DNA of 32,264 nucleotides from Falsiruegeria mediterranea M17 (GTDB lineage: Bacteria; Pseudomonadota; Alphaproteobacteria; Rhodobacterales; Rhodobacteraceae): assembly GCF_900302455.1 (NCBI RefSeq), contig NZ_ONZG01000023.1:1-32264 (forward strand), in the 5' to 3' direction. The notes under the pieces were generated by a model. That model ran no database searches. It was not told the origin of the DNA and saw only the letters and a program-made list of their open reading frames with translations. Shown here one piece after another: positions 15,131 through 31,944 of this stretch; position 1 is the first letter of the stretch; every line of letters starts with the position of its first letter. The position numbers were made by a program, and so were the translations under genes.

Positions 15131-15250
15131 TGTCACCTCAATTTGCATTTTGGCCTCGTCAGGTGTGAAAACTACAGTTCGCCAACACAAAACGAGACAT
15201 CGAAATTTAATCTTTGAAACCGTGACGCGATTCCATCGTTAGTCTTGTCA

Positions 15251-15361
15251 CAGATTGGTCACATGGCACTTCCTCAGCATGCCGAGCTTTTGTAGATGAT
15301 CGCCAAAGCTGAATTTGTCACGTTGCATTCTCCGCTGTTGCTCAAGGCTCTCGATCTTTTC
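15251..15361 (-). other. in-frame 37-codon extension behind the TGA stop of the DUF262 fusion gene
   Basis: Directly after the TGA at 15362-15364 the same frame stays open for 37 codons (EKIESLEQQRRMQRDKF at the start, then about 20 more residues) and ends at a second TGA (15248-15250). The composition, with a heptad-like helical start, looks coding rather than random. It could be a tail lost by a nonsense change, a readthrough product, or chance. Confidence 0.3.
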
Positions 15362-17491
15362 TCAGAAGCGTCCTTTGTTCCATTCATGCTCTTCCGCACG
15401 TGAAAGCGGCTGCGATGATCCTTCTTTGCGTACGAAGAACTCCTCCTTACCTTCGGAAATCACGTAAACGGGTTTGTTCGCTCTTGTGACCTCAACATGA
15501 CAAATCTGTTTGTCGTCATAGGTGGGCCAGTTGAGCTTCCAAAGCTTCATAACGTCCTTACCGAGGAACTTGTCGAAGATATTAGCAATGTGAAGTTGAA
15601 AGCCGTCCCGATCTTTCTTTGAAAGTGTGCCGCAGTCGAGTTCGAGGCCAATGGCATTCCCATGGTCATCGACACCAATGAAGAGGCTTCCACCGTCAGA
15701 ATTCATGAATGCCGCAACTGTCTTGGCGACCACATGCTCGAGCTTCTTGTTCACTTCGCCAGTACGCATGTCGTATCGTAGGGTGGACTTGAACTCTACC
15801 AGCTGGCCCTCTCCATCGAGGATCATCTCATGGATGGGGTCGATCTGCGCGGGTGCTTCGGATGGTTCGATGCGCTTCAAGATCTCGGCATAGAGCACTT
15901 CTGAGCGATGCTTCAGGAATGCAGTAAAATCGTCTTGCACAACTGAGGCATCATCCAACTCGATGAGATGGCTGCTCAGCGCATGCTTTAATTCTGAATT
16001 CTCATCTGCAAAATCTGCTAGATAAACCGAGGGGGCCTTTGCGCCGATCCGCTTCTTGTTCAGTTCGGCGCTGACCAAAGTGATGTTCACAATCGAGTTG
16101 GCATAGGGGGTCTCTGCATCGCTGCCATGCTTGCGGACAAATGCTCTCGGAAAGAAATGGTGGTAGTTCTTACTGCTGGCGATTTTGAGATAGGAGTTAT
16201 CCAGAAGCACCTTACCGTTTGTGTCGAAATCTTTTGGTTCATGATATGCTAGAATGCACAGGATCGACTTGCAGATCGCGTTCCCGGTCGAGAAGTCTGT
16301 TTCACGGAGATCTTGAGCTGAATTGATGAAAAGTTTGAACTCGGAGTAAGCTGGCCGCTGGCCTGCTATGATTAGATCAACTTTCTTGATATCAGCCGCC
16401 AGCTTGGATTCAGTTGCCGATGAATACCGCAGCGACAAGGAAGAACGCCAGAAGAGCTCTTCCAGATATTTCCGTTGCTGACCGCTGGGTGACTTGCCCG
16501 TTTTCAAGAAGAAGTAGGCAAAAGGCACGATGAGAGTGTCGTAGGGCAAAATTTGGGAAACAGGTATCCGCAAAACTGTTCGGAAGTGGTCGATGGTCTT
16601 CTCGATCGCAGAGATGACATCATCCCACCTTGCAATGATGTCGGCCTTGTCCAGGCCAAGGATCGTCTTTCGCTTGCACTCCTTCGACTCGCTTATGACG
16701 AGGCTCAGGATTTGCAGAAGAACAGAGGGAGAAATGTTTTCGTACTTGCTGTCATTAAGTTTTTTCTGGAACTTCTCCCAGCGGGCCTGCATGTCGAAAT
16801 CAGCGGCTTCGTCGTAGGTCTTGGCCGACATGATTTCGAAAAGCGTGAGAACCTTTCCCCCCGTATTTATTCGAGTAAAGACCTCAATGGCGGACTCGAT
16901 ATCGTTCTGTCGAAGGGTGACCGTTGAGAACGCATAAGTCTTAAAGGCGCTGGAATAAGCACTGATCTGATTGATTTGAGTTTTCTCAAAACCACGCTGT
17001 TCCAGTTCATTGCCCATCTGGTAGTCAAAGTTCAGAACGTCATGCAGGGGTATGAAAACCTCCGCCTCGTCTTTCACGGTGACGATGTCCTTCTCCTTCT
17101 CCTCGAGGTTCTCTTCCAGGTTCACGACAATGTCTTTGTAGTCGGTCACCTTTTTTTCGGTGGGTTTTCTGATCTGTGCACCAAGATAGGCAGCGAAGAG
17201 GGAGGTTATGCGTTGCTGCCCATCAAGGACGTACTGAACATTGCGCCCAACGGGCGTCTCAGGCAGATCAAAGCCACCAATGTTCTTTATATCGTTGATG
17301 CGTTGATCCGTTTCCCAAAGGATGAAGGTCCCGATGGGATACCCTTTGAGGATAGAATCCAGAAGCTTGGCAGTTGCCTTCAAGTCCCAGACGAAATCCC
17401 GTTGGAACTTGGGCACCTTGATGATGCCCTTTTTGACGTCCGAGATCAGGTCATCATATGTCTTTGAATCTGGCTTTGGCTGGTTATTCAT
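15362..17491 (-). CDS. DUF262 (GmrSD-type) - HNH - AlbA_2 (Schlafen-type) fusion protein
   Basis: A 709-aa protein with three parts. The N-terminal DUF262 (about 10-230) shows VPKFQRDFVWDLK, ILKGYPIGTFILW and VLDGQQRITSLFAAY, the DNA-binding/NTP-using module of GmrSD-type modification-dependent restriction enzymes. The middle part holds HHFFPRAF (H444, H445) with ANSIVNITLVSAELNKK and KAPSVYL, the His-Asn pattern of DUF1524-like HNH nucleases. The C-terminus (about 555-700) is an AlbA_2/Schlafen-type domain: GEGQLVEFKSTLR (E566, K568), AFMNSDGGSLFIGVDDHG and VRKEGSSQPLS. The start ATG 17491 follows GGACGGACGA. It lies 75 bp behind the HNH gene, same strand. GmrSD enzymes cut modified phage DNA; Schlafen-type domains are found in tRNA- or DNA-acting defence proteins. 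The combined activity here is inferred. Confidence 0.85.
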   Translation of the reverse strand: MNNQPKPDSKTYDDLISDVKKGIIKVPKFQRDFVWDLKATAKLLDSILKGYPIGTFILWETDQRINDIKNIGGFDLPETPVGRNVQYVLDGQQRITSLFAAYLGAQIRKPTEKKVTDYKDIVVNLEENLEEKEKDIVTVKDEAEVFIPLHDVLNFDYQMGNELEQRGFEKTQINQISAYSSAFKTYAFSTVTLRQNDIESAIEVFTRINTGGKVLTLFEIMSAKTYDEAADFDMQARWEKFQKKLNDSKYENISPSVLLQILSLVISESKECKRKTILGLDKADIIARWDDVISAIEKTIDHFRTVLRIPVSQILPYDTLIVPFAYFFLKTGKSPSGQQRKYLEELFWRSSLSLRYSSATESKLAADIKKVDLIIAGQRPAYSEFKLFINSAQDLRETDFSTGNAICKSILCILAYHEPKDFDTNGKVLLDNSYLKIASSKNYHHFFPRAFVRKHGSDAETPYANSIVNITLVSAELNKKRIGAKAPSVYLADFADENSELKHALSSHLIELDDASVVQDDFTAFLKHRSEVLYAEILKRIEPSEAPAQIDPIHEMILDGEGQLVEFKSTLRYDMRTGEVNKKLEHVVAKTVAAFMNSDGGSLFIGVDDHGNAIGLELDCGTLSKKDRDGFQLHIANIFDKFLGKDVMKLWKLNWPTYDDKQICHVEVTRANKPVYVISEGKEEFFVRKEGSSQPLSRAEEHEWNKGRF

Positions 17492-17566: not shown

Positions 17567-18316
17567 TCACCCTTCAAACAAGTTGGTGCGATGCCAACTC
17601 AGGCGCTTCGCTATTTCGTCATTCAAGCGGGTCAAACGCATCGTCGGCAGTATCCCGGAAGCTAATTGATCCCCGTCTGAGACTTTCGTCGAGATCAGAA
17701 TGTTCCCACCGTCATCAAAGGACACAAGACCAGCGTCGAAGGCGGCGTCTAGCGTGGCGACCAGAAGCAAACCGTTATGCACGTTCAGGCGCTCTTCGTC
17801 GCTTTCACATTTGGCCCAGGGAATGATGTGGCTCGCGCGTAGCAGCGTCGGGTTCCGCACGCCGGTGACAGCGCAGGATTTTTCCCAATAATCCATCAGG
17901 GCCGAGCGAAACACATTCTGCCCGATCCGTTCCTTGCGCAGCCGTTCCACCTCGGTGCTGGAAGGCTCCTCTTGAAGCAGACGCTCGAACTCTGCCAGCG
18001 GTTCGTTGGGCAGAGAGCGCGCGAGCGCCCAAATGCGGCCGATGATGCGGAATAGATCGCCGGAGCTTGGGGCGATAAAGCAGTCAAAACCCTCATGCGC
18101 GACCGGCGCGGGGGCGAGCTCGCTCGACAGTTCGCGGCCGACGCCCCGATGCGAGGTGCCAACAAAGAAGCGCCCTGTATCATCCGTGGTCAAGGCTAGC
18201 CGAGCTGTCACCGCATGGCCCTGAAAACACAGCCAACCATCGCTTTCGCCAAGGGGGATCGAGAACCCGTGATCGAGGGCGGATTTTTCCAGTCGGTTGC
18301 GTAGGCTCAGGTCCAT
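17567..18316 (-). CDS. HNH endonuclease (HNH_2 type)
   Basis: A 249-aa protein. The first 130 residues are an uncharacterised alpha/beta region; the C-terminus carries the nuclease: RIGQNVFRSALMDYWEKSC, ITGV-like AVTGVRNPTLLRASHIIPW (catalytic His163), RLNVHNGLLL (Asn/His 178-181) and LDAAFDAGLVSF. This is the usual layout of the restriction-associated HNH_2 family. It starts 10 nt behind the RAMA-like gene, in the same operon as the methylase, and so is the best candidate for the cutting component of the system. The cleavage activity is inferred from motifs. Confidence 0.85.
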   Translation of the reverse strand: MDLSLRNRLEKSALDHGFSIPLGESDGWLCFQGHAVTARLALTTDDTGRFFVGTSHRGVGRELSSELAPAPVAHEGFDCFIAPSSGDLFRIIGRIWALARSLPNEPLAEFERLLQEEPSSTEVERLRKERIGQNVFRSALMDYWEKSCAVTGVRNPTLLRASHIIPWAKCESDEERLNVHNGLLLVATLDAAFDAGLVSFDDGGNILISTKVSDGDQLASGILPTMRLTRLNDEIAKRLSWHRTNLFEG

Positions 18317-18326
18317 TCTTTTTAGA

Positions 18327-18572
18327 TCACTTCAAGTGTTTTTTGCGAAGTGCACCGAGTCTTTCTCCGGTAGACAGTTCTACCTTGTCGAAGATATTGA
18401 CACCCTTCCAACCGGTTAAGCTCTTGGCCCACGCCGTGAATGTCATAGTCTCACCTCGGTATTTTACCTTTCGTGCATCCACAATTGTGGCCCGAGATGC
18501 GGGCATGCCAACGAGCTGGACTTCTTGACCAGCGCGCAAAATTCCAAGTGAAAACATTTCCTCTCGTGTCAT
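18327..18572 (-). CDS. small RAMA/DUF4357-like protein
   Basis: An 81-aa protein (GILRAGQEVQLVGMPASRAT, then VKYRGETMTFTAWAKSLTGW, ending with a basic KKHLK). The order 'level of compound - G - y/v - A-W-A - tGW' resembles RAMA/DUF4357 domains, which often accompany adenine methylases and restriction enzymes as DNA-reading modules. It sits 10 nt ahead of the HNH gene and 17 nt behind the methylase, so it is certainly in that operon. The family assignment is tentative. Confidence 0.55.
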   Translation of the reverse strand: MTREEMFSLGILRAGQEVQLVGMPASRATIVDARKVKYRGETMTFTAWAKSLTGWKGVNIFDKVELSTGERLGALRKKHLK

Positions 18573-18589
18573 AACTGCCGTCCTTTCTT

Positions 18590-21500
18590 CTACATTTTCG
18601 ATCTTGAATGCCTGTCATAGGCCTCCAGGATCAGTCTCTGTGTTCGGTATTCGCCAAGCTGGCTGACTTCTTTTTCTTTCAGCCCCCGAAATGTCTCAGT
18701 GGGGTACGCATGTTCTTTGATCGAATGAGGATCCAACACAAAACTCAATTCCTCTCTTGTCAGGCGATACTTGTGAGCAAAAAACGCGTCGAGTTCCGCT
18801 CTAAGAAGCGCGCGTCGTTCTGGATCAAAGTTGAACGGCGCTCGATCACAACCGAGGTCTTCGGCCCAAGGTCGCATAGCCTCGGTAGTGTAGGTTAACT
18901 CAGTCATCAGTTTCGTTAGAATTGCTAACTCTTCCTCATTAAATTGATAAGGGGCAATTACCGGAAATTGCTGCACGTAGAAAAAGTTAAGATTTATTCC
19001 GCCGACCTTTTGGCGGGCAATGTAATCGAAGGGTATGCTTGATATGCAAGCCATAAGAGCGGCATAGTGCGGGGTCGAAAGATCGCCTGGTACGCCCCAA
19101 ACTTGGACGCTATTGCCCGTGGCTGTACGCGGAATGATAGTTCCTAAAACAGTTCTTTCGTCGGTAGCACGAGCAATGCCGCGAACCCCCAACAACCAAC
19201 GCGGCTTCTTTCGATCAATCAGGTCCCCCGTCAGCTCCAGCCATCGACCATCATAGTCTTTGATAAAGGCGAGATCGTCTTGAGCTAACGGCGTATAGCG
19301 CTGCATCTCCACGCCACGGGGCGCAGAGGCGCTCAGCCAATTTTGAAGACTTCTGCCCACGACGCTGGTTGATGTCGCTTGCGGGCCCAAGACGTTTGTC
19401 AGATGTGCCTGTATATCGCGCAGGGAGGCGATCGGGTTGCGCGGGCTCAAGCCTGGGGTCGACCCCAAGACCCACTCTGCCAGAACCTTAAGGCACGCTT
19501 CAGCATCTTCTTTGCGGAATGCCGATTTCAAACGGGTCGGCACACGTGACGCTCGCAGATCAACCTCATCTTCCGGCACCCAATAACGTGGGGTCGGTTC
19601 AAAGGTCGGATTCTGCTTTTCTTCAAGGGTCACGTCTCGCGTCGATTGATCCTCATCTTCACCCTCATAGGTCGCCCAGCGATGATCGTAATGGTGGATC
19701 ATTTTGGCCTCATAGAGGGGCACAAAGCGCCGCCCGTCTGAATGTTCCCAATTCGCGCTACTACGAACAAAGCCTTGCTTTGCAAGGGTATCCTCGCCCG
19801 CGAAGAAACCGCTGTCGTTTGACATGTCGAACATGCGTTGAAAGCTGATCCCCCAGGGGTTCTTGTCGCCTTCAGGGCTGTCAGGCTGTTCTTCGATCAG
19901 AACGGGCGCTTTGGCATATAGTTTTGCCGTCAGTTCAGCATCGGCGCGCGACCGAAAGACGGGGGCCGTTTTTGTGTTGGGATTGATCGCCGCGATCTGT
20001 TCGGGTGTGAGTGTGAAACGACGTTCTTTTTCTTCCAGCATGGACACATCGTGCAAAAAGAAGGCGAAACTAGCGACCTTTGCAGGACCGATGGACAGGA
20101 TCGAGAATTTGAAACTTCTGTGGACACTCGGGAAGATGCCGTCTCGGTTTTCGAAGTCGTATAGAGCGTTCAAGCGTTTGGTTGCCACCAAATCCCCAAA
20201 AAACGCACTGGTGGAGCTGTCCGTGGCAATGCCTGTCGGCACGATCATCCCTGCGCGGCCAGAAGGTGCTTCACGAACCCCGCCTGTATCCGCAATGGCC
20301 TGGAGCAGCGAGGTTTGGGGAGCCTTCTGCGACTGCATGTTTCGACGGGCAAGGCGTGAAAAATGCTCGGCGAAAAGCGCATAGGTGTTGACGTCACCGA
20401 CGCCGGACAAGGGAAACCGGCCCGACTTGCGGACAAAGAAACTGGCGGCTTCTGCCGCACGTTTCGCCGCTTCAAATTCGAGAAAGAGATCGCGTTCAGC
20501 TGTGCCGTCCTCAGCCGAAGACAAGGCCTTGATCAGCTTGTCCCTCGCGGCCTTGTTCTTGGCAGTCGCAATCGCCGTATCCCGTGAGGCAAAGAACTCT
20601 TGCTCCTGAAGTTTGATACGCTCCCACGGCGGGTTTCCTACGACGGCATCAAAGCCGCCTCGCGCCATGACGGCCGGAAAAGCTAGTGGCCAATGCAGAG
20701 CGCTGTTCTGGTCAGAGACGGTATGGGCATTGTCTTGCAGGACATCCGACCGGATTTTGCCGCTTAACGCTTCCCACATTGCACCTGTTGTCGGCACGGG
20801 CATGTCCACTAAAGTTCGGGCGGAGGGTTCTTCACCCACCTTGGGTGTGAAAAAGGCCGCCACATACATATCGCAGGCCAATTTCAAGCGCTGCCATTGG
20901 TCAGACGCCTCGTACTTGGCAAATGCACGCGCCTTGGCCTTGACCTCCTTCAGCGTATCCTCGGGCATGGCCGCGATTTTCCGCGCGCCATCGATGATCT
21001 CAGCCGGGGCCGCGAGAGTTTTGATAAAGCCCGACGCGGCCTTGCCATCACGTTCGTCCTTGTTGAGGCGTTCATAGGCTTTGGCCACTTCTTTGTCGTC
21101 GCCGGACATCGCCTTATACGCATCGTCCGGGATACCGGCCTTCAGCATCTCGTAGTCGAAGATCCCGATCAGGCTGTCTCCGCATTGGATGCGGGCGTCG
21201 AGGAAGGATAGCGGCTTGCCTGGTTCCAGCGCTTCGATCCACAAGGCCACCTTGCAGAGCTCAACTGCCATTGGGTTCCTGTCGGACCCGTATATGCAAT
21301 TCCCGACGACCTCACGCAGGGCATGTTGGAAGACTTCTTGTGAAATGGCTCCGGGCATCCGATGACGAGCGATGCGGGCTGCGGCGCGACGAGCGGCTCC
21401 GAGAAGAAAGTGACCAGACCCACATGCCGGGTCGATCATCGAAAGCTTAAGTATTTCGGAGACGGGATCGTTTGGATTTCGTGCCTCCGCTGCATCCAGC

Positions 21501-22972
21501 ACGGGATCCAGCGTGGTATCCAGAAGAAGTTTCACCAAAGAATCTGGTGTGTAGTAGGAGCCTGACACCTTGCGGGCGTTGCCCTTGGTCGCATCGCCTT
21601 CCGCAAAGGTGAAATCTCTCGCCTCGAGGTTCAGCTCTGGTGTGAGTTCCAGCAGGCTTTCGTAGACTGACCCCAGTTCTTCCGTTTCCATGTCACGCCA
21701 ATTCACCTTGGTCATGGATTGACCCTCAGGACGGAACCAAGCCACCCGCCAGATCGCTTTTAAGAAGCGTTTGTTGTCGATCTTGCAGTTGCCGAGATGT
21801 TCGAGTTTGTCTGGGTCAAAGAGCCCGCCAAGAGCAACCAGCCCAAGAGCAGGCTGTCCGTCCGAAAGTGCTATGAAGAGGGATTTCATCCCCTCCCAAG
21901 CATCAATATTTTTGTCGAGAGAGGCGTTGCGAACGCAGCGTTCTCGGAGGCGGTGCAATGAATACCCTCCAAGATAGGCCTTTCGGGCGGCGTCGCTCGT
22001 ATTTGGGGCATGCAAGAGGTCGCGGTCTTCTGCCGCGAATAGGAAGATGATGCGGTAAACCAGCCGCAATAGTTCTTCATAGTAGGCTTGGCGTCTTAAC
22101 TCGCCTGACTGCAGCTGGTCTCGCAGCTCCGAGTTGAAGGGATGTTGGATAAATCCTCGCCCCAGTTCAATCAGTGCAGCTTCCACGCCCAAGCGCAGAT
22201 TGTCTTTTGCAGCTGCACCATCGAGACGGCTCCGCTCTTTCCAACGCTCCAGCGGGCAGTCGGACGGACTAGTGCCTTCAACGCCAAATCGGGAAGCGTG
22301 AAGGATAAGCCATGCTGCGGAAAAGTCGGGAAAAAGTCCTTCTGTGAAGATCTTCTCGAAGTTCACTTCAATCCAGGCCGGTCGTGTGAGACTTGCATTG
22401 TCCCGCATGATACGCAGCACGCCACCATCACAGGTGATACCCCATAAAGCATCTTCATCGGCGTTCAGGTATTCCTGCAAGAGCTGGGTCGATGACCTTT
22501 TGCGGGTGTCATCTCCAAACTGAGAAAGAGCTTCATCTATGCCTGGCTTTCTGCTGTCAGCGGGAGAAGAAGGAGCGATGATGACAGGTATACGCCCATT
22601 TGCTGCAGAAAAATTAACAGGAAATGTTCGGTCAGTAATCTGTTTGCCAGCCGACTTTGTGAGGGTTTTGAAGCCGAAGCATTCTGAGAGCAGGCTTTGC
22701 ACGAAGCCAATAGGAGCAGACGCATTCGCCCCTTTTCCAGCCTCATAGCTTTCCCAGTGAGCATGGGCGATCTGATAAAAGCGAGCGATTTCATCCCGAA
22801 GCTTCAGGCCTTTGGGGATATCGTAGCTTTCATCACTTTGTTCGGCTGCATCACCAGCTGCAATTTGGGCGATTATATCTGTTGGTAGAAGACCGCCAAC
22901 AACTTCAATTGCCGCAAAATCTAGGCGAGCAGAGCGGCGGGATTGTCTACGTCTTTTTGTAATTCTGGCCAT
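18590..22972 (-). CDS. Eco57I-type N6-adenine DNA methylase, DrmMI-like
   Basis: A 1460-aa protein. The N-terminal 470 residues are a helical region of the sort found in large type IIG/PglX/DrmMI-type methylases. Motif I is DPACGSGHFLLGAARR (Asp514) and motif IV is GNPPWERI (NPPW at 780-783), so it should transfer methyl groups from S-adenosylmethionine to the N6 of adenine. The C-terminal 600 residues would contain the target recognition domain (YYVQQFPV-like FFYVQQFPVIAPY and ADDRAPF-like blocks). No PD-(D/E)XK motif is obvious at the N-terminus, so it looks like a methylase alone. It starts 10 nt behind the SNF2 helicase gene. In DISARM class 1 such a methylase marks self DNA; a BREX PglX-like role is the alternative. 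Confidence 0.8.
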   Translation of the reverse strand: MARITKRRRQSRRSARLDFAAIEVVGGLLPTDIIAQIAAGDAAEQSDESYDIPKGLKLRDEIARFYQIAHAHWESYEAGKGANASAPIGFVQSLLSECFGFKTLTKSAGKQITDRTFPVNFSAANGRIPVIIAPSSPADSRKPGIDEALSQFGDDTRKRSSTQLLQEYLNADEDALWGITCDGGVLRIMRDNASLTRPAWIEVNFEKIFTEGLFPDFSAAWLILHASRFGVEGTSPSDCPLERWKERSRLDGAAAKDNLRLGVEAALIELGRGFIQHPFNSELRDQLQSGELRRQAYYEELLRLVYRIIFLFAAEDRDLLHAPNTSDAARKAYLGGYSLHRLRERCVRNASLDKNIDAWEGMKSLFIALSDGQPALGLVALGGLFDPDKLEHLGNCKIDNKRFLKAIWRVAWFRPEGQSMTKVNWRDMETEELGSVYESLLELTPELNLEARDFTFAEGDATKGNARKVSGSYYTPDSLVKLLLDTTLDPVLDAAEARNPNDPVSEILKLSMIDPACGSGHFLLGAARRAAARIARHRMPGAISQEVFQHALREVVGNCIYGSDRNPMAVELCKVALWIEALEPGKPLSFLDARIQCGDSLIGIFDYEMLKAGIPDDAYKAMSGDDKEVAKAYERLNKDERDGKAASGFIKTLAAPAEIIDGARKIAAMPEDTLKEVKAKARAFAKYEASDQWQRLKLACDMYVAAFFTPKVGEEPSARTLVDMPVPTTGAMWEALSGKIRSDVLQDNAHTVSDQNSALHWPLAFPAVMARGGFDAVVGNPPWERIKLQEQEFFASRDTAIATAKNKAARDKLIKALSSAEDGTAERDLFLEFEAAKRAAEAASFFVRKSGRFPLSGVGDVNTYALFAEHFSRLARRNMQSQKAPQTSLLQAIADTGGVREAPSGRAGMIVPTGIATDSSTSAFFGDLVATKRLNALYDFENRDGIFPSVHRSFKFSILSIGPAKVASFAFFLHDVSMLEEKERRFTLTPEQIAAINPNTKTAPVFRSRADAELTAKLYAKAPVLIEEQPDSPEGDKNPWGISFQRMFDMSNDSGFFAGEDTLAKQGFVRSSANWEHSDGRRFVPLYEAKMIHHYDHRWATYEGEDEDQSTRDVTLEEKQNPTFEPTPRYWVPEDEVDLRASRVPTRLKSAFRKEDAEACLKVLAEWVLGSTPGLSPRNPIASLRDIQAHLTNVLGPQATSTSVVGRSLQNWLSASAPRGVEMQRYTPLAQDDLAFIKDYDGRWLELTGDLIDRKKPRWLLGVRGIARATDERTVLGTIIPRTATGNSVQVWGVPGDLSTPHYAALMACISSIPFDYIARQKVGGINLNFFYVQQFPVIAPYQFNEEELAILTKLMTELTYTTEAMRPWAEDLGCDRAPFNFDPERRALLRAELDAFFAHKYRLTREELSFVLDPHSIKEHAYPTETFRGLKEKEVSQLGEYRTQRLILEAYDRHSRSKM

Positions 22973-22982
22973 GGTCTTACCC

Positions 22983-25781
22983 TTACAATCCCGGCATCAG
23001 CACATAGAAACCAATCACATCAACTGGTGTGATGGCGCTGACTTTTACCTGTCCTTTTGACCCTAGTGCCTGACGCACTCGAACATGGTCGCCGGCCAAA
23101 ACTTCTGACCGCTCATGCGCAAACTGGGTCAGAGCTGGCTGAAGAGCCTCCAGAGAATTCAACGCCCGTTCAATCTGGTTTTGGCGGGTGCTTTTGTCGA
23201 GGTTCTGACCGTCCTGATCGAGCAGTGCAAAGGCATCTTCGTCCCACTTCATTGGAAGCTTGGAGAAAGCGCTGAAGGCGATAGCAGCGGACTCTTCTGC
23301 CATGGCAAATTTGGGCCCTAGCTTGCCCCTGGAGTCGATGCGATGACGCACTCTTAGAAGAGCAAGCCAGGTAACCTCATCAACTGCATCCGTTTCCCAA
23401 GCCCCCAAACGTGGCAAGGTGGACAGGGCATCTTCGTCGGCAAACTCATCTAGAGCTTGCTCAAGGAAGTTTTCAGCCAGAACAGACGGCAAGGCATGTG
23501 CACGGTGAACAGAAATCGTGCCACTTGGAGGGCGAGCAGAGAACCCGACCTTGAGGGGCTTGATATCTGCATCATCTATCAAGCTTTCAGCAATAAACCG
23601 CTCCTTGATGTGGTCTGGAACCAGGTGAAGAGCGACCTTGTAGGCACCAGATTTTAGGGGCTCCAAGGGTTGTCCAAGACGTTTCATGGCTTGGAACACA
23701 AAACGTTCAGTATCCGCGTAACCACCAAGAGCCGTTTGGGTCGCCTCCCATTCCACGGCAACTTCTTCAGGTTTCAAAGAATTCTGAGCAAAAATGGTGC
23801 GGGTCTTCTTTTCCTGCTCGGAGGCATTGATCCATGCCATTTCAATCTGGCGAGCTTCTTCCGAGTCTGAAAAGTCGAGATCAAGGGTCATCTGTTCCTG
23901 ACCTCTTGCCCGCAGCATCACGGTAGACATGAGGGCTTTGGTCAACGAGCCTTGGTCATCAGGCATCGGAACCCGAACACCTGTCTGCTTAGCAATAGCT
24001 TCCGCTTTGCGGATGATCACTTCGAGAACAGCACCATCGACTGGGTTGTTCTCACCATACATTAGCACAGAGCGAACAATCGGCGCTTTCTGACCAAAAC
24101 GGTCGATACGGCCTTCTCGCTGTTGATGACGGGTCGGGTTCCATGAGAGGTCATAATGAATGACCGCATCGAACCAGGCTTGAAGGTTGATACCTTCAGA
24201 CAAGCAGTCGGTCGCAACAAGAATTCGGTTTTCGTGACCACCGAGTTCTTCAACTCGGATTTCACGTTCCTCTGACGGCATAGCCCCCGTGACAACTTCA
24301 ACCACATGCTTAGACGCGAACTTTTGAAGTGCTGCCCCAATTTGCTCGGCGGTTGCGATGTAGCGGCAGAAGATAACAGGCGAATGCCCCTTCTTGAGCA
24401 TATCCTCCAAGGCTTTGATGAGCGCCTTGAACTTGGGATCCTTTTCGACCTCTGCAGAGAGCTTGTCTGCTGTGGCAATGAGTGAACTGAGGTTTTCATC
24501 TTCGATGCCAACACCAGGTTCAAGATCGTTTTCAGAAAGCTCTTCATCATCTAGGGTTTGAGCTGAAAGTTCGCTTTCCGAGATGGCACTAGGATCCAGT
24601 TGGGCACGTGTCTTGAGCGCACGTGCAGCGGCAGCTGGACTGGACCCCACACAGCGCATCAAAGCGAGTGTGCCCCAGAAAGCGAGACGTTTCTTGGTCT
24701 CACCTTCAACGGACTCAATGACTTCCGCACAGTAATCGAGGATTTTTCCGTAGAATTCTTCATATTCGCCAGTCAGCCGATAGGGGAAGTTCGAGGTCTC
24801 ATGCGTTGGAAAGAGACCAGGTTCTTTCCATGCATCAATGTCACGACGACGACGCTGGATAAAATGTCCTGCAAGCCTTTCCCTCAGCTGGCGCTGTCGT
24901 TCACCTCCTGCATCCTGAAGTGCTGCGAATTCTTTATCCAAAAGCCCCAGGAGATTGTGAAAGGCTGTCTCATCACCCGAATGTGGAGTTGCGGTAAGAA
25001 GCAATATGTTGCGTTCAGGATCGTCTGCAAGTGAACGGACAAGCTCATAGCGTCTTTGCCGTCCTTTGCCTGCACTGACCGCGGAGTGGGCCTCATCAAC
25101 GACTACCATGTTGGGACATGCTCTCTTAAAGTCGAAAAAGCGGCGTTCACTCTTGATGAAGTCCATCGAAACCACGGTGAAGGGGTAGGCTTCGAAAATG
25201 GAGACGGTGTTGGGCAGGTTACGTTCAAGCCTGGCCGCTTCAGATGCGGTCACGGGTGTTGCCGGAATAGAGAACTTACTTTCAAGTTCACTTGTCCACT
25301 GCTCGACAAGATGGGGTGGGCAAAGCACGGTGAAGCGGTCGATTTCACCACGGTCGAGCATTTCCCTCAGAATGAGACCAGCTTCGATTGTCTTACCGAT
25401 ACCCACGTCATCAGCGATGAGGAGACGGATTACGTCCTGTCGAAGCGCCATCATCAAGGGAGCAAGCTGATAGGCTCTCGGTTCAAAGTTAATGCGACCA
25501 GCAGCACGGAAAGGGCCTGCACCACGGCGCAAGGACAGTCTGAGGGCATCCCTGAGTAACTGGGCGGCATCACGTCCACCCAATTTATCGGTCAGCGAAG
25601 GGGGGGCAAAGCTGGCGTAGGTTACAGGATCCGCTTCCAGCTCAGGAATGATCGTTTCAAGGTCGGCTTCAGAGCCGGAAAGTGGACGCAAAGTCAAAGC
25701 GTTCGAGCTATCGACAACAACCCATTCACGTCCACGAGCTCTTACCAATTCGCCAGGAGAAAACTGTTCTGCAATACCCAT
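22983..25781 (-). CDS. RapA/SNF2-type helicase, DrmD-like
   Basis: A 932-aa superfamily 2 ATPase. The N-terminus (LVRARGREWVVVDSS, then LRPLSGSEADLETIIPELE) is characteristic of the DISARM DrmD helicases as I know them. Helicase motifs: ADDVGIGKT (Walker A, Lys130), VVVDEAHSAVS (DEAH 229-232), LLTATPHSG, and in the C-terminal lobe ILVATDCLSEGINLQ and HQQREGRIDRFGQ. The last 300 residues are a C-terminal part without a recognised domain. It begins 3 nt behind the DUF1998 helicase gene and ends 10 nt before the methylase, so these three are one transcript. Predicted to translocate on DNA. Confidence 0.82.
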   Translation of the reverse strand: MGIAEQFSPGELVRARGREWVVVDSSNALTLRPLSGSEADLETIIPELEADPVTYASFAPPSLTDKLGGRDAAQLLRDALRLSLRRGAGPFRAAGRINFEPRAYQLAPLMMALRQDVIRLLIADDVGIGKTIEAGLILREMLDRGEIDRFTVLCPPHLVEQWTSELESKFSIPATPVTASEAARLERNLPNTVSIFEAYPFTVVSMDFIKSERRFFDFKRACPNMVVVDEAHSAVSAGKGRQRRYELVRSLADDPERNILLLTATPHSGDETAFHNLLGLLDKEFAALQDAGGERQRQLRERLAGHFIQRRRRDIDAWKEPGLFPTHETSNFPYRLTGEYEEFYGKILDYCAEVIESVEGETKKRLAFWGTLALMRCVGSSPAAAARALKTRAQLDPSAISESELSAQTLDDEELSENDLEPGVGIEDENLSSLIATADKLSAEVEKDPKFKALIKALEDMLKKGHSPVIFCRYIATAEQIGAALQKFASKHVVEVVTGAMPSEEREIRVEELGGHENRILVATDCLSEGINLQAWFDAVIHYDLSWNPTRHQQREGRIDRFGQKAPIVRSVLMYGENNPVDGAVLEVIIRKAEAIAKQTGVRVPMPDDQGSLTKALMSTVMLRARGQEQMTLDLDFSDSEEARQIEMAWINASEQEKKTRTIFAQNSLKPEEVAVEWEATQTALGGYADTERFVFQAMKRLGQPLEPLKSGAYKVALHLVPDHIKERFIAESLIDDADIKPLKVGFSARPPSGTISVHRAHALPSVLAENFLEQALDEFADEDALSTLPRLGAWETDAVDEVTWLALLRVRHRIDSRGKLGPKFAMAEESAAIAFSAFSKLPMKWDEDAFALLDQDGQNLDKSTRQNQIERALNSLEALQPALTQFAHERSEVLAGDHVRVRQALGSKGQVKVSAITPVDVIGFYVLMPGL

Positions 25782-25784
25782 GGT

Positions 25785-28700
25785 TTACTCCTTCAAGGCG
25801 GATTTCAAGTCGTTGAAGACCTGTTTTTTTTGGTCAGGTGATATGGGAAGGATAAAAAGCCTTACGCCCTTTGCATCCAAAGCCGAGCGCAATTCCTCGC
25901 TCACCCGCTCGTCCTCAACCGCAACAATGCGTTTCTTTCGCCAGAAAAGTGGGATCTCGACACCAGCGATTACCAAAGGATTTGGCTCAGGAGGCGGCAG
26001 TTCTCCTGCATCAACATCTGCTCCAGAAGAATGAGCAGGGGATGATACTGATCCTGACCCGTTTGCAGTTGTCACTGGTGCAGGGTCTTTTCTGGTTTCT
26101 TCCGGTGCAGAGGTCGTGCTGTAGGCCAGTCTCAGCAGCATCCTTTGCATTTCCTCATCACGTCGCTCGATATGCTCGTGGTCAGGTTGATTAAAATAGG
26201 ACAGTACACATCGGTAGCAGCCAGCCACGCAGTCCACACCAGTCTTCTGAACAAGCTTATCAGGATCACTATGTGGCGTGCTGAAGGATGAAGGCTCAAA
26301 ATGCATGATTTCGAGTGCTTTTCGAGCAACCAGTGCGATGCTGTCTTTTTCAGACACCATCTGTCCGAGAGCCCCAGCACCACCTTCGGCGGCTTCATAA
26401 AACAAAAGCGCACGGCGTTCTGAACGGGAAGGCGTTGGCTCTACGAGGATCTCGCCTTCTTCAAGCTGGAATACAGCTTCGATACCACGAGCCAATGCAT
26501 GCTGAAGTGTGGTGAGTGTCTTATCAGCTTCCTTCCCAAGATCGGAGAGCCACTCATCATCAAACCTGATGAGAAGTGCATTCTTACGGTCTTCTACCGT
26601 CGGCACGATGAGCTGTTTGAGTTGATCTGGGCGTTCTTCTTCACTGCCATCATCTTTGGGTTTGCCGACCCATACGCCAGTTTTTGGGTTGATATAGAAG
26701 CCAATCTCTGACTTGTCGGCTCGACGCCGCAAGCCCTTATTGATCCGGCTGATATAGGCAGCTTGAGCGTAGTCGATTTGGATGATGTCGCCATCATCAT
26801 CTCTGACTTTCATCGAAGCCGTGTAACTGGACGCATCAAAAGCGAATGTCGTCTGAATCTCAAAGCCTTGACGCTTACGCTCTTCGTCATTTGATGTGAT
26901 CCGTTCAGCGGGGCGTGTGCCAACATTCTCAATACGGTAGAGATTGGTCAGCGGAACAGATTTACTGAGTGCTGTGTTACACACATGGCAACGTTCCGGA
27001 TGCTCACCATCATGGCTTGCTCCACAGGAGGGGCAGAGGGCACGTGATTTGGTACTCAGATAGCCATCATCTCGGTCACCAGCCTCCTTGAGAAGGGCGC
27101 GGTCAACACGGAAGGCACGTCCTTCATGATAAACGAGGCTTTGAGGTCCGAATTCTGAAATCGCAAGGAACCTGGCACGCTGGATGTAACGCTGGTTCTT
27201 GCCATCATTTCCACCCTGCACGTAAGCCATCAAAGGTAAGCGTGGGAAGTTATATCCGGGAAGGAAACCTTCTGTCGCCAGATACCTGTAGATGTAGAAG
27301 TCATTATCCCTGTTCGACTGGTTAGACAAAAGGATAGACCGCTGGAACTCGCCCATGCGGCGGCGATCTTCTGCAGCTTTCCGCTCTGGGGGGGAAATCG
27401 TGTAATCTTTCAAGGTTCGCTCAGCCAAATCGATAGAACGCTCAGCAGCCTTCAAGAGATCTCGCCAGCGTTCGAAGGTATCATTGAAGCGACCGGGAGC
27501 CTTCGAGGTGATATCCGCGGTAACAAACTCCTTAGACTTGAACCAGCGTGGGTTGTCGCCGCTGTAGTCTTTTTCCAGAGCTGTCAAAACAGCTGTGATA
27601 AGTGGTTTTGCACGGTCAGCGGTGTGTGGGGCAGCAGCCACATCCCGGATTTCTGGCAGGAGTGCTTTTTCTGGGTCAGAGAGGTCAAGGTTAGCTTTGA
27701 TGTTCTTGTCCAACTCGATGTTGTCATCCTTCAGCTCCATACCCAGTGAGGCAAGCCACTCAGCGTTGAGATGGCTCTCAACCAAGTCACGGTTTTTGAG
27801 ATCGATGGAAGGTGGGACCACAATGCCATCAACAAGATCGGTCTTTCGGTCGAAGAAATACTGATCGTGCGGACTTTGAGCGGCGCAATAGGTCAAGATC
27901 AACGCAGCCTGTCCACTACGGCCAGCACGACCACTGCGTTGTGCGTAGTTGGCGGCTGTAGGGGGAGCATTGCGTAGATAGACCACATTCATGGCGGAAA
28001 TATCGACACCAAGTTCCATTGTTGGGGAGCAGAAAAGCGTCGGAAGAAACCGACTGTCTTCCTTGAAGTTTTTCAGGCTTTCCTCTGCCTCTTGGAGGGC
28101 TTTCTGGTCTTCCATTCCGTAGCGGAAGCGCATCTCCCGCAACTCTCTAAGGTCCCCTTCAACTTGGGCGGTGTGCTCGCGCCCCTCAAAACCGAAGAGA
28201 GTCTGTCCACCTCGGTCGAGCATTTCAGAGACCATCTGATAAACGCCGACAAAGTAGGTATTTGTCAGTTCGGCATCAGCAAGCGTTTCATCGAGAGCAA
28301 AGCGGACGGTAGACCCAGCGAGCCGCCAACCCATCCCGAATGGGCCAGCTTCTTTGATGACCGACCCATAGTTCTCAGATGCTTTCAGCAGCCCTTCAAG
28401 AACTTCAGGAACCTCTTTCAACTCGATGCGAAGCCCAGAAAAAGTCAGGTCCCGCATCTTGCGTCCGATGGCGCTGGTAGGACTTCCACGAAGGAGCCGG
28501 TCTTCATCCTTATTCTTCATTTCCTTTCTCTTCGGCGGCTCGGTCATGAAGATTGTGGAGGTCACCATGCGGTCATCATCGACGTTCCACGGTGACTTGA
28601 TGAGGTTGTGGTTTTTGCCGACCAGTTCTTCGAGCTTAAGTCTGTTGAGAGCGGCACAATCAACAGCAAGACCTTTGCGCATATGGTCGTAAAGTGCCTT

Positions 28701-31079
28701 GAGAGCCTCTCTACGTTCCTCTGTGCTGGCATTATTGAGGATGGGCGAGCTTCGGAATTCATCAGCATCAGCTGAAATATCATCCAGATATTTGTAACGT
28801 GCTGAGAGCAGCCCAAGCTGTTCAAGGTTAGGGTTCGTGTAGCGCCAACCTCTACGCTGATCGATCCAGAAAAGATGCTGTAAGTTCTGCCGCAAGATTG
28901 CTTCAGCCTCGTTGCGACGTTCACCCTTAACTCCGGTGTTCAGTAGCCATTCGGGCGAACGTTGGGCATAATCTGGTGAAGCAAGGAAACCGAGCGCTTT
29001 TTGGACCTCTTGACCAATATTTGCTTCATCGAGCGAGCCATCTGGCGCTGAACGCAGGGCGCTAATGATCGCCCCCCTAAGCATAGTGACAAACACGAAA
29101 TCGTTGAAGTGACCTGCCTGTAGGGCAGCATCCTGGCGATTGTCCGTGAATGCGAGTAGCTTGCGCGAGTAATCGTCAATCGTGGACGCTGGCGAATTCA
29201 TCCAGCGCAACACGGTAGACAGCAAGATGGTCGTGGCAGAGCTTCTGCTCTCGGCACTTAGGGATGCCAGTTTGTTGATGTCTCGTGCTGTAGAGGTGCT
29301 GACATCCCGACAGGAGGGGCAGAAACGATATTTTCCAGGCAGGAACCAAGCTTGCCGTGATCCGGAATGAGCGGTCCCGTCTGGCAGAACAGAAAACTGT
29401 TGTGCCCGCTTCTTGCGATAGGTGGCTTTCAGGCGCTTTTCGCCATTTGGCTTCTCATCAAGCCATGCGTCTGGGTAGTCCTCGTCTTTTCCGGAAAAAC
29501 TGAAGTCTGAACTTGTGGGTTCAGGCATTAGGAAACCCCAATCTGCCCCATCATCATCTTCATCGCCTTCTACAGGGATATCGTCGATTTCTCGCTTCTC
29601 GAAGACATCCGTACCGTCATGGCTGCGAAGTGTTACCGGATGGAACTCTTGGCCGCAGTTCCGGCAGAAATGGGTGGGGTAGAGCCGTTCAGCGTCATTA
29701 TTCGGGTTGAAGAGCTGCCCGCTGAAGGTCACATCCCGCTCACCCTCAGGGCGCAGGGTCATATAGAGCCTGCCTGCACCCGCTACGAACTGGTGCAGTT
29801 TAAACGCAAAAAGTGGGGAGTATTCCTTACTACCCTCAACTCGGTCTTTTTCCGGAACAGAATATCCGATGAGTGCTTCACGAAGGGCTTGAGCACAGAG
29901 TTCTACATCCAGTCCACAATCAGCGGAAAGGGTCTCAGCCGCTTCTTCCAGTGAGATTGGCTTTGCTCTTTCAGGCTTGGTTTCAACATTTTTGAGCCCA
30001 ACCCGGGTCTCGACCCAGATAGCCAGAGGATCATCGAAGAAATCAGAATTCTTGAGACCTTGGGCTACATTACCCTTGGAGGCAGCGAGAACGGCATCTG
30101 AAAGCCCACTTAATCCTTTAACTCCAATTTTTACTGGGTTCGTCACTCGTTTGAGGGTTTCTGTTACAATGGCATCTGGGCCGATATCAGCTCCAAAAAT
30201 CTGACTGGCAATGCGTGCGACTGCTTCGTTCTTTTCGTGTTGGGCACCTTCTGACGCCATAGTTGCCGATGTGCCAATGCACAGTGGGGGATTCTTGGGG
30301 GCGCCAATGCGAGAGCGCAGACGGCGCATGAGCATGGCAACGTCAGCACCCTGCCTCCCCCGATAGGTATGAAGTTCGTCCAGAACGATGAACTGCAAGC
30401 CTTCGCAGTTTTGCAGTACCTTGCGATCCAAGTCACTCTGACGTGTCATCAGAAGCTCAAGCATCATGAAGTTGGTGAGCAAAATATCTGGCGGATTGGC
30501 CTTGATGAGTTGCCTGTCTTCGTTGCTTTCTTGGCCCGTGTAACGCGCGTAGGTGACAAGGCCGCCAGTTGCAGATCCAAGGTAGCCTTCGAGTTCTTTT
30601 GCTTGGCTATTCGCCAATGCGTTCATTGGATAGATGACAATAGCACGTGTTTTCGCGCCTCCACCCGCTTTCTTGGCGCGAATGACGGCGTCTATGATTG
30701 GAATGAAGAAACACAGAGACTTGCCAGACCCTGTGCCGGTTGTGACGACGTAGCTTTGGCGTTCTTTTGCGAAGCTGATAGCTTGTTCTTGGTGCTTACG
30801 GAGCTTTAGGCTTGGGTCGGCCTGATCCGTTGGGCCCCACTTATCGTGGAACACGTCAGAGCATTCTGGCTCAAGCATACCTCCATTGATGAAATCAAGG
30901 ACAGACCCGCCTGATGCATAGTGTGGATTGATCTGCAGAAGCGGTTCGGGCCAAAATCGATTGTCGTCATATAAAGCGTCTACCTTCGAAGAAATTTCCG
31001 GTGACCTGATCTTCGTAAAGGACCTTGAAAATGCCTTGTATTGATCGATAACAAATCGATCTAGATTGAATACGTCCAT
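25785..31079 (-). CDS. large DEAD/DEAH helicase with DUF1998, apparent DrmA-DrmB fusion (or DruE-like)
   Basis: A 1764-aa protein. I start at ATG 31079, 4 nt behind the regulator's stop; the upstream ATG at 31139 would overlap the regulator by over 50 bp. Motifs: LRKHQEQAISF, VVTTGTGSGKS (Walker A about 113-121), PMNALANSQ, LDELHTYRGRQGADV (234-237), motif IV-VI SPTMELGVDIS and YAQRSGRAGRSGQ. Zinc-ribbon-like pairs follow (FCRNCGQEFHP, FCPSCRD, LCPSCGASHDG..CHVCN). The C-terminal DUF1998 module has EAAEGGAGALGQM and DCVAGCYRCVLSYFNQ (Cys1617/1621/1624). A Pro/Ser/Thr-rich linker and a 60-residue end domain (VEIPLFWRKKRIVAV) close it. In DISARM, drmA and drmB are separate genes (about 1300 and 600 aa); here one chain has about their sum. 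DruE of Druantia is the other large DUF1998 helicase, so the assignment depends on the neighbours (DrmD-like, adenine methylase), which favour DISARM. Confidence 0.78.
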   Translation of the reverse strand: MDVFNLDRFVIDQYKAFSRSFTKIRSPEISSKVDALYDDNRFWPEPLLQINPHYASGGSVLDFINGGMLEPECSDVFHDKWGPTDQADPSLKLRKHQEQAISFAKERQSYVVTTGTGSGKSLCFFIPIIDAVIRAKKAGGGAKTRAIVIYPMNALANSQAKELEGYLGSATGGLVTYARYTGQESNEDRQLIKANPPDILLTNFMMLELLMTRQSDLDRKVLQNCEGLQFIVLDELHTYRGRQGADVAMLMRRLRSRIGAPKNPPLCIGTSATMASEGAQHEKNEAVARIASQIFGADIGPDAIVTETLKRVTNPVKIGVKGLSGLSDAVLAASKGNVAQGLKNSDFFDDPLAIWVETRVGLKNVETKPERAKPISLEEAAETLSADCGLDVELCAQALREALIGYSVPEKDRVEGSKEYSPLFAFKLHQFVAGAGRLYMTLRPEGERDVTFSGQLFNPNNDAERLYPTHFCRNCGQEFHPVTLRSHDGTDVFEKREIDDIPVEGDEDDDGADWGFLMPEPTSSDFSFSGKDEDYPDAWLDEKPNGEKRLKATYRKKRAQQFSVLPDGTAHSGSRQAWFLPGKYRFCPSCRDVSTSTARDINKLASLSAESRSSATTILLSTVLRWMNSPASTIDDYSRKLLAFTDNRQDAALQAGHFNDFVFVTMLRGAIISALRSAPDGSLDEANIGQEVQKALGFLASPDYAQRSPEWLLNTGVKGERRNEAEAILRQNLQHLFWIDQRRGWRYTNPNLEQLGLLSARYKYLDDISADADEFRSSPILNNASTEERREALKALYDHMRKGLAVDCAALNRLKLEELVGKNHNLIKSPWNVDDDRMVTSTIFMTEPPKRKEMKNKDEDRLLRGSPTSAIGRKMRDLTFSGLRIELKEVPEVLEGLLKASENYGSVIKEAGPFGMGWRLAGSTVRFALDETLADAELTNTYFVGVYQMVSEMLDRGGQTLFGFEGREHTAQVEGDLRELREMRFRYGMEDQKALQEAEESLKNFKEDSRFLPTLFCSPTMELGVDISAMNVVYLRNAPPTAANYAQRSGRAGRSGQAALILTYCAAQSPHDQYFFDRKTDLVDGIVVPPSIDLKNRDLVESHLNAEWLASLGMELKDDNIELDKNIKANLDLSDPEKALLPEIRDVAAAPHTADRAKPLITAVLTALEKDYSGDNPRWFKSKEFVTADITSKAPGRFNDTFERWRDLLKAAERSIDLAERTLKDYTISPPERKAAEDRRRMGEFQRSILLSNQSNRDNDFYIYRYLATEGFLPGYNFPRLPLMAYVQGGNDGKNQRYIQRARFLAISEFGPQSLVYHEGRAFRVDRALLKEAGDRDDGYLSTKSRALCPSCGASHDGEHPERCHVCNTALSKSVPLTNLYRIENVGTRPAERITSNDEERKRQGFEIQTTFAFDASSYTASMKVRDDDGDIIQIDYAQAAYISRINKGLRRRADKSEIGFYINPKTGVWVGKPKDDGSEEERPDQLKQLIVPTVEDRKNALLIRFDDEWLSDLGKEADKTLTTLQHALARGIEAVFQLEEGEILVEPTPSRSERRALLFYEAAEGGAGALGQMVSEKDSIALVARKALEIMHFEPSSFSTPHSDPDKLVQKTGVDCVAGCYRCVLSYFNQPDHEHIERRDEEMQRMLLRLAYSTTSAPEETRKDPAPVTTANGSGSVSSPAHSSGADVDAGELPPPEPNPLVIAGVEIPLFWRKKRIVAVEDERVSEELRSALDAKGVRLFILPISPDQKKQVFNDLKSALKE

Positions 31080-31083
31080 ATTC

Positions 31084-31944
31084 CTATACTTCCGCTCTCG
31101 CCAGTGAATCTCTGTTTTGGAGAATAATTTGCTGCTCATTGGGGGATCTTGAATTCGGATCCACGTCCAGGCCTAGCCGCTTCAGGTTGTAAAATAGAAG
31201 GCATCTACGCACTTGTATTTCTGCTATGCCGTCCTGCATTGCGTAGTCGAGTTCAACTATTCTCCGTTGGTTTTCGGATAGGCCAGGGTGAGGCGCGATT
31301 TTGAGCGTTATTGTTTGGTGCCAGTCTTCATCTGTACCGGCATCGACATCTGATTGTTCCCCCAATGTGCTCTTCAGTATGCGTCCGAGAACAAAGTCTT
31401 TGAAAACTTGGTCTTTTGAGCAAAGCGCTCTCGCATGCCAACGAAATCCGTCATGTGCGAGGGCATGAGGAATGATAACGCGATCTTCTGGATCGGGGGA
31501 CGACATCGACTGATAGCTTATTTGCAGCTCTTTGCCCTGTTCACAGGCTAATAAGACGTTGCGAAGCGTTAGCGCGCTAAGTCCGCGCCCAGGCACAGTG
31601 GTTGCCAGAATGTCCGGCTGATAGACAATCCAGTCTGCAGTGGGGGCTGAACCGCCCCGTGAGATCGACAGGAGATCATCAAGATACTCTGACGGATCAA
31701 GCGCAGTGTAGTGTTCTTCGAACTTCGGGCCCAGAACGTAGGTCTTGGCCGTTTTATCGTAGATGATGTGTTCGGGATGATCATTGATGTAGCTATTGAG
31801 GTCTTTCGAAGCTTGAGCCCGACTAAGGCCCATAACGTCCATCAGATCCGCAAGGCCGACACGTCCACGCCAAAAGACCCTGTGCTCAATGAATGCACGG
31901 CGATCCTGCTGCCATCGTGAAAGACTATTCGATTCGCTTGTCAT
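31084..31944 (-). CDS. CapW/BrxR-like wHTH-WYL transcription regulator
   Basis: A 286-aa protein. The N-terminus (DRRAFIEHRVFWRGRVGLADLMDVMGLSRAQAS) is the winged helix seen in CapW/BrxR regulators, followed by VYDKTAKTYVLGPKF. A WYL domain (about 110-205) carries ISYQSMSS..VIIPHALAHDGFRWHARALC and KDFVLGRI; a WCX end follows. Such regulators repress phage-defence operons (CBASS, BREX) and release them on a nucleic-acid-type signal. It is the first gene of the operon and overlaps nothing; the next gene starts 4 nt after its stop. An inverted repeat lies just upstream of its start. The start is 31944, without a strong Shine-Dalgarno. Confidence 0.85.
   Translation of the reverse strand: MTSESNSLSRWQQDRRAFIEHRVFWRGRVGLADLMDVMGLSRAQASKDLNSYINDHPEHIIYDKTAKTYVLGPKFEEHYTALDPSEYLDDLLSISRGGSAPTADWIVYQPDILATTVPGRGLSALTLRNVLLACEQGKELQISYQSMSSPDPEDRVIIPHALAHDGFRWHARALCSKDQVFKDFVLGRILKSTLGEQSDVDAGTDEDWHQTITLKIAPHPGLSENQRRIVELDYAMQDGIAEIQVRRCLLFYNLKRLGLDVDPNSRSPNEQQIILQNRDSLARAEV

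Follow-up and report, generated by a model that had tools for sequence, protein, structure and literature searches.

The window analysed here is the entire contig NZ_ONZG01000023.1 of Falsiruegeria mediterranea M17, 32,264 bases of a genome of 5.28 Mb. At positions 17567-31944 it carries six closely packed genes, all open and all on the minus strand, which confirms the defence operon that the original prediction had placed there. We describe this operon with attention to two of its parts, the tail of its large helicase and the HNH endonuclease encoded by its last gene. In order, the genes encode a WYL regulator, a YprA/DUF1998 helicase, a BrxHII/DrmD-like helicase, a PglX-like methylase, a protein of 81 amino acids (aa) and the HNH endonuclease. 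The gaps between them are 4, 3, 10, 17 and 10 nucleotides (nt), so the spacing of 3-10 nt given earlier needs correction.

The first gene (31084..31944, minus strand) encodes a WYL-domain transcriptional regulator of 286 aa, with matches to PF13280 (2.8e-9) and to the PADLOC WYL model (1e-14). An upstream WYL gene is also found in the related loci L005, L027, L030, L186 and L206. The YprA-family (ArmC-like) helicase is 1,764 aa long (25785..31079, minus strand), with DEAD, Helicase_C and DUF1998/MZB domains fused in one chain. Its open reading frame (ORF) is listed from 31139. The start most likely lies at 31079 (M21 in the listed frame), since relatives align from this residue and such a start leaves 4 nt between the helicase and the stop of the WYL gene. 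Next come a BrxHII/RapA-like SNF2 helicase (ArmA-like, 932 aa, 22983..25781, minus strand), for which the best PADLOC models are DpdE and DrmD, and a PglX/DrmMI-like N6-adenine methyltransferase (ArmB-like, 1,460 aa, 18590..22972, minus strand), with NPPW and ACGSG motifs in its translation.

The 81-aa protein (18327..18572, minus strand) had been called RAMA-like. A weak RAMA match does exist, but at 14.2 bits and E 0.044 it is below the Pfam cut-off of 35.2 bits. A phmmer search over a set of the relatives' loci matched this protein alone. The HNH endonuclease (249 aa, 17567..18316, minus strand) is composed of an N-terminal domain from residue 1 to about 115, linker helices and an HNH_2 domain (Pfam PF13391, 1.9e-13). 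The domain kinds named beforehand fit five of the genes, namely WYL, DEAD with Helicase_C and MZB/DUF1998, SNF2-type, N6 adenine methylase and HNH_2. The sole MZB gene and the sole HNH-profile match of the whole genome (E 0.001) are both in this operon.

ARMADA Type I is described as generally running from a YprA helicase through a BrxHII-like helicase to a PglX-like methylase (Bell et al. 2025 preprint, PMC12458937). Going by this gene order and by the helicase tree, the window operon is an ARMADA Type I operon. In a tree with outgroups, its helicase clusters with 29 other helicases of our set, apart from the ARMADA II, viral, Druantia III and DISARM rows. As outgroups the tree had 7 viral relatives, 3 ARMADA II rows (assigned from their gene order) and single rows of Druantia III and DISARM. 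The core gene order was found again in other records, which points to more than chance, and to this extent the conservation proposed at the outset is borne out. The preprint also reports defining inserts of ARMADA helicases, a BrxA-like one after RecA1 and a zinc beta-barrel and a MarR-like one in RecA2 (PMC12458937). For the window helicase, the alignment shows CxxC pairs.

According to the same source, the helicases of ARMADA I and II carry at their C-terminus a Vsr nuclease predicted to be active, which is given as a domain and not as a rule of membership (PMC12458937). The corresponding tail of the window helicase, after the DUF1998 cysteines, is 134 aa long (25785..26189, minus strand), and its last ~65 residues appear to be a decayed Vsr-type nuclease. 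In the alignment, the motif PDFxY...(V/I)DGPxH is missing from this tail, and relatives in the same tree have it. We read the tail as a decayed Vsr domain because motif-less and intact tails align: in hhalign, a profile of 40 motif-less tails (out of 43 labelled decayed) matches a profile of 33 motif-bearing tails with Prob 97.4 and E 9.2e-12. Judged from these alignments, the Vsr-type domain of the helicase has lost its active site in the window lineage. In the AlphaFold model of the tail, short strands lead into an alpha-beta-alpha remnant, with a predicted local distance difference test (pLDDT) of 90-96 over that stretch.

The 40 decayed tails keep common positions, with G in 38/40, P in 37/40 and W in 31/40, all of which are kept in the window. 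These positions suggest that the decayed tail retains a role such as docking. The Vsr states were assigned by regular expression, a crude method that gave 33 intact, 43 decayed and 10 partial tails, and these labels were retained. Read by eye, the tails of L029, L037, L047 and L052 count as decayed and that of L034 as near-intact, and in L051 half of the motif is left.

As for the HNH protein, its model is confident (pLDDT 94.6), with helices in the place of a linker before the HNH domain. The closest solved relative in Foldseek is the EVE-HNH enzyme VcaM4I (6yex, E 9e-10), and by sequence the HNH half matches VcaM4I at 1.7e-37, over profile positions 125-254 only. Residues H163, N181, D190 and D194 are kept in 41/41 HNH proteins and align with H224, N241, D250 and D254 of VcaM4I. 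This enzyme acts on modified-cytosine DNA, its H224A, D250A and D254A variants are drastically impaired in cleavage, and its HNH domain, when freed of the helical linker, cuts unspecifically and is toxic (PMC7897488). The window protein is like VcaM4I in the four residues of its HNH domain and in the helices ahead of that domain. It differs at the N-terminus, where VcaM4I has an EVE domain and none is recognised by sequence in the window protein.

The first 115 residues have no Pfam family match. For this N-terminal part Foldseek gave weak matches to the T4 MotA domain (E 0.26 and up), which we do not count as evidence. Another Foldseek match of the HNH protein, weaker than that to VcaM4I, is to the modification-dependent TagI (E 0.03). 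A Foldseek search of the HNH model against viral structures returned nothing for the N-terminal domain; of its five matches at E <=0.001, four bear the name HNH endonuclease and the fifth is a phage protein without a name. The HNH enzyme is likely to be the nuclease of the operon.

Relatives were gathered from the best 80 of 590 species-genome matches, from plasmid records, from 12 viral contigs and from 8 of 385 same-class genomes. Since only the best 80 of 590 matches were used, the tree over-represents kin of the window. In total 89 helicases were readable, and 86 entered a FastTree tree. HNH calls came from longer flanks, genome searches and a six-frame search; of the 89 helicases, 44 have the HNH, 26 lack it and 19 are without a call. 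Absence means no A2-profile match beside the locus, with the whole genome searched in most cases at E 1e-6 and the plasmid record alone for L016 and L017. Weak domain-only HNH matches occur elsewhere in the genomes of the HNH-negative L065, L076, L086 and L089. Three of the 44 positives (L015, L084 and L041) are domain-only or cut matches.

One clade of 52 rows in the FastTree tree holds all 44 positives, together with 8 rows without a call. Among the 34 rows outside it, 0/25 called rows are positive and 9 have no call. L033 and L036, both rows without a call, carry the HNH on a second contig. The clade has a local support of 96, and an IQ-TREE tree of 33 rows gives a support of 86 (not starred) for 19 positives or their kin. 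The minimum number of changes on the FastTree tree is 1 for the HNH and 6 for Vsr. Furthermore, distances between HNH proteins follow those between helicases (r = 0.876, with 0/2,000 permutations as high, 41 rows).

Considering the 68 rows with both states, from which the near-intact L034 was omitted, intact Vsr without HNH is found in 20 and non-intact Vsr with HNH in 40; intact Vsr with HNH is found in 3 and non-intact Vsr without HNH in 5. The HNH clade includes five Vsr-intact rows, of which L035, L039 and L040 have the HNH and L038 and L043 have no HNH call. The statement that the HNH and an intact Vsr never co-occur was therefore rejected. In L035 the HNH stretch is covered by an open frame of 241 aa. 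These five rows, the near-intact L034 and the half-motif L051, both also in the clade, are all betaproteobacterial. Since three of the five intact-Vsr rows of the clade also carry the HNH, it was probably the HNH that arrived first, with Vsr decaying later. The metagenome-assembled genome G401 has both forms, one locus with HNH and a decayed tail (L047) and another with Vsr and no adjoining HNH (L070).

A second draw covered 398 genomes of the phylum, with separate searches for the helicase (E 1e-100) and for the HNH (E 1e-55). The helicase was found in 14 genomes, including the window's own. Besides this one, three genomes (G695, G738 and G759) have both helicase and HNH, and their tails are decayed in 3/3. 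Of the 10 helicase genomes without HNH, 9 are readable, and all 9/9 have an intact Vsr, in 10 helicases because G564 carries a second copy. The rule of a decayed tail with HNH and an intact one without it held in 12/12 readable genomes of this draw.

Over both draws (385 + 398 genomes) a full-length HNH was found in 8 genomes, and in 6 it adjoins ARMADA core genes. The other two copies are in G066, beside core-gene fragments, and in G636, on a 9.3-kb contig where no helicase was found. The G066 locus (L180) looks like the remnant of a broken ARMADA operon, in which an open HNH gene is retained beside BrxHII-like and SMC-like fragments.

We propose the following mechanism. The WYL protein would control expression of the operon, and the PglX-like methylase would mark host DNA at N6-adenine, help to tell self from foreign, or both. 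The BrxHII-like and YprA helicases would make up or serve a machine for scanning DNA, which loads on invading phage DNA and moves along it. In this respect, the related DruE has a preference for 3' single-stranded tails, on which it loads, and it carries a C-terminal nuclease of its own (PMC13192584). In an ordinary ARMADA the helicase would do the cutting itself, by its C-terminal Vsr nuclease; in the window lineage the HNH protein would cut in trans. Its N-terminal domain and helical linker would keep the HNH off until recruitment, and the recruiter may be the degenerate Vsr tail itself.

A functional swap from Vsr to HNH is likely on this sequence evidence. The conserved HNH active site, the parallel divergence with the helicase and the lineage with both nucleases are all favourable to it. 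Taken as a whole, we lean moderately towards an ARMADA Type I anti-phage operon of an HNH-bearing lineage, in which a trans-cutting HNH replaces the decayed Vsr. The original prediction was that the HNH may replace the nuclease DrmC; the HNH is indeed likely a nuclease, but what it appears to replace is the C-terminal Vsr of the helicase. A more specific version remains tentative, and we would put it at somewhat below even chances: an HNH-ARMADA subtype in which a stand-alone, auto-inhibited HNH bearing a new targeting domain was taken up a single time, served in parallel to Vsr and then replaced it, with the dead fold as the docking site from which the HNH is put onto phage DNA.

Several observations weigh against the swap or against parts of it. 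Foldseek of the tail model gave nothing at E 0.001, and its 50 rows listed hold MrfA and DrmB for the DUF1998 part and no Vsr, so that the decay reading rests on sequence. The tree with outgroups compares the window with Type I-ordered loci of our own set, and its outgroup branches are long. In it, L015 and the betaproteobacterial positives group with L049 and with L055, which is HNH-negative, an arrangement that would need one HNH loss or a second gain. Anti-phage activity is reported for an ARMADA Type II system, as non-abortive and requiring all four genes (PMC12458937), and the window operon is of Type I. After correction for descent, the link between HNH and Vsr comes down to 5 independent pairs, with the HNH differing in 1 (p = 1). 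Since the HNH was gained once only, we infer compensation without statistical proof. Outside the clade, Vsr is not intact in 6/34 rows (L085-L088, L093 and L094), of which five are HNH-negative and L094 has no call; in L093 the cause seems to be a frameshift. For L085, L086 and L088 a single downstream gene each was scanned, and no nuclease match resulted. The second draw is partly dependent on the first, as a 60-residue stretch in two of its helicases recurs in rows of the first set, and several of its genomes belong to the same genera, in few groups.

The main rival explanation, which we consider rather unlikely, is that the HNH is an independent modification-dependent (type IV) or back-up enzyme that travels with ARMADA and fires if the core is blocked or the phage DNA is modified, with no cutting done for the helicase. 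The dependence of VcaM4I on modified cytosine, the weaker match to TagI, the auxiliary HNH enzymes found beside BREX (PMC12839542) and the three betaproteobacterial loci with both nucleases would all fit such an enzyme. However, the likeness to VcaM4I stops at the HNH half and the N-terminal domain matches no Pfam family, the HNH diverges in step with the helicase, and 6/8 genomes with a full-length HNH have the core genes adjoining, all of which speak against it. It is improbable, in our view, that Vsr decay and the HNH are unrelated, with Vsr dispensable in ARMADA I and eroding by drift while the HNH is the hitch-hiker of one clade. On the tree Vsr does change state at least 6 times, in part in rows that lack the HNH, and the sign test has the HNH differing in one of its 5 independent pairs. 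Yet drift agrees poorly with an HNH active site kept in 41/41, with 40 decayed tails that still share positions, and with the 12/12 fit of the second draw, though in few groups.

The remaining candidate, a new DISARM branch with an HNH in place of DrmC, is very improbable. BrxHII/DrmD-like and PglX/DrmMI-like genes are common to the window and class 1 DISARM. Against this, the DrmD score is 307 of 610 bits, DUF1998 is fused, similarity to DrmA is weak, DrmC is not seen, and the helicase is far from the one DISARM row in the tree.

Several neighbouring genes may also belong to the system. A GmrSD (DUF262) gene fused to Schlafen AlbA_2 is found at 15362..17491 (minus strand), 75 nt downstream of the operon, and is possibly an extension of it or a mere neighbour. 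GmrSD (DUF262) genes are present in 7/89 ARMADA I loci, all 7 HNH-positive. The order in L186 (WYL-YprA-BrxHII-PglX-HNH-GmrSD, with GmrSD at 14698-16968) is that of the window minus the 81-aa gene. In several relatives an SMC-like protein of ~660 aa is found between methylase and HNH, for example at 24862-26844 in L010 and 24435-26417 in L012. It has a weak DUF2326 match under the cut-off and is present also in loci without HNH. In the window, the 81-aa protein takes its place.

A UvrD-type helicase is encoded 171 nt past the GmrSD-Schlafen gene (12413..15190, minus strand; 925 aa as listed from a TTG start, the true start being unsure). Relatives occur in two other ARMADA I operons (L163, 15992-18694, and L209, 1-2561): in that of Croceicoccus marinus pCME4A9II the gene stands between methylase and HNH, and in that of G591, which has an intact Vsr and no HNH match, it follows an SMC-like gene. 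Others are seen in different helicase-methylase clusters of Aeromonas and Raoultella. A close homology to ArmD was rejected, as the match to the UvrD of L170 is 44 bits and covers the generic helicase part; the gene may still be the Type I counterpart of ArmD.

In actinobacteria, the ARMADA I operons L017, L087 and L094 are followed by McrB-like genes, and L017 also by McrC. The McrB-like gene adjoins a non-intact Vsr tail in two of these three (L087 and L094), possibly another nuclease exchange. On a Mesorhizobium loti plasmid (L011, 12025-17013), the YprA helicase stops before the tail and no BrxHII-like or PglX-like neighbour is recognised. Helicases of the wider family are also encoded by 12 IMG/VR viral contigs (L098-L109), and 6/7 viral helicases in the tree cluster with ARMADA II, which indicates carriage by phage-like elements. 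Finally, two HipA-like kinases (PF07804; window 6881-8182 and 10459-11679) flank a DUF6880 gene and are likely toxin-antitoxin modules of the same island.

In terms of known systems, automated tools split this single system, as the best PADLOC models of its three core proteins come from three different ones: DruE3 (294 bits), DpdE (620) and DrmMI (258). The NCBIfam scores are all under the curated cut-offs, with DrmD at 307 of 610 bits, DpdE at 209 of 500 and DpdJ at 83 of 800. The helicase scores 294 bits with DruE vs 52 with the best DrmA model listed, and in BLASTP it reaches 128 bits with an ARMADA II helicase, 110 with one DruE (over the RecA parts) and 31.6 with one DISARM DrmA. Of the profiles proposed for checking the prediction, DrmD is under its cut-off and DruE comes ahead of DrmA for the helicase. 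A relation to DISARM stands, but the operon is not DISARM itself. Class 1 DISARM has a split DrmA/DrmB pair and the phospholipase-D nuclease DrmC, while in the window MZB is fused into the helicase and DrmC, as had been noticed before, is not found: none of the 16 window ORFs has a phospholipase-D match (Pfam, E 0.01). The fusion and this negative result disfavour DISARM, and class 1 was rejected on these grounds and on the DrmD score.

Druantia III is similar in that DruE3 is the top PADLOC match of the helicase. It has DruE with DruH, whereas no DruH-like partner is among the PADLOC matches listed for the 16 ORFs and no phospholipase-D domain match was seen, so Druantia was rejected. Dpd was also rejected, with DpdE and DpdJ under cut-off and no 7-deazapurine insertion gene among the matches of the 16 window ORFs. 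Closer is ARMADA Type II, represented by L170, L171 and L172, which were picked by gene order. L170 has homologues of all three core proteins, at 163 bits for the BrxHII-like helicase, 130 for the methylase and 128 for the YprA helicase. However, the Type II order is BrxHII-PglX-YprA-UvrD(RelE), ending in RelE-GajB (ArmD). The window has a different order and no such end, and Type II was rejected.

The idea of compensation is not new, because in a BREX-related class the nucleases near loci without a fused one were already called likely compensatory (PMC12839542). For ARMADA I, we found neither an HNH accessory nor nuclease compensation described in print, a search that left the preprint supplements outside; the main text of the preprint mentions HNH and WYL once each, within reference titles (PMC12458937). 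These loci suggest a defence system that exchanges its cutting part while the parts for sensing and moving stay in place. Living intermediates would let the role of the nuclease in ARMADA, and how it is switched on, be probed by simple mutations. The window shares with ARMADA Type I the order YprA, BrxHII, PglX and the fused DUF1998. It differs in a helicase without the Vsr motif and in three extra genes, the WYL regulator, the 81-aa protein and the HNH endonuclease. The gene set is thus not the new branch first proposed, as ARMADA Type I was named in 2025 (PMC12458937), and the alternative then allowed for, that these accessory genes go with a system already known, is borne out by half: the core belongs to a known system, and for the HNH accessory no description was found.

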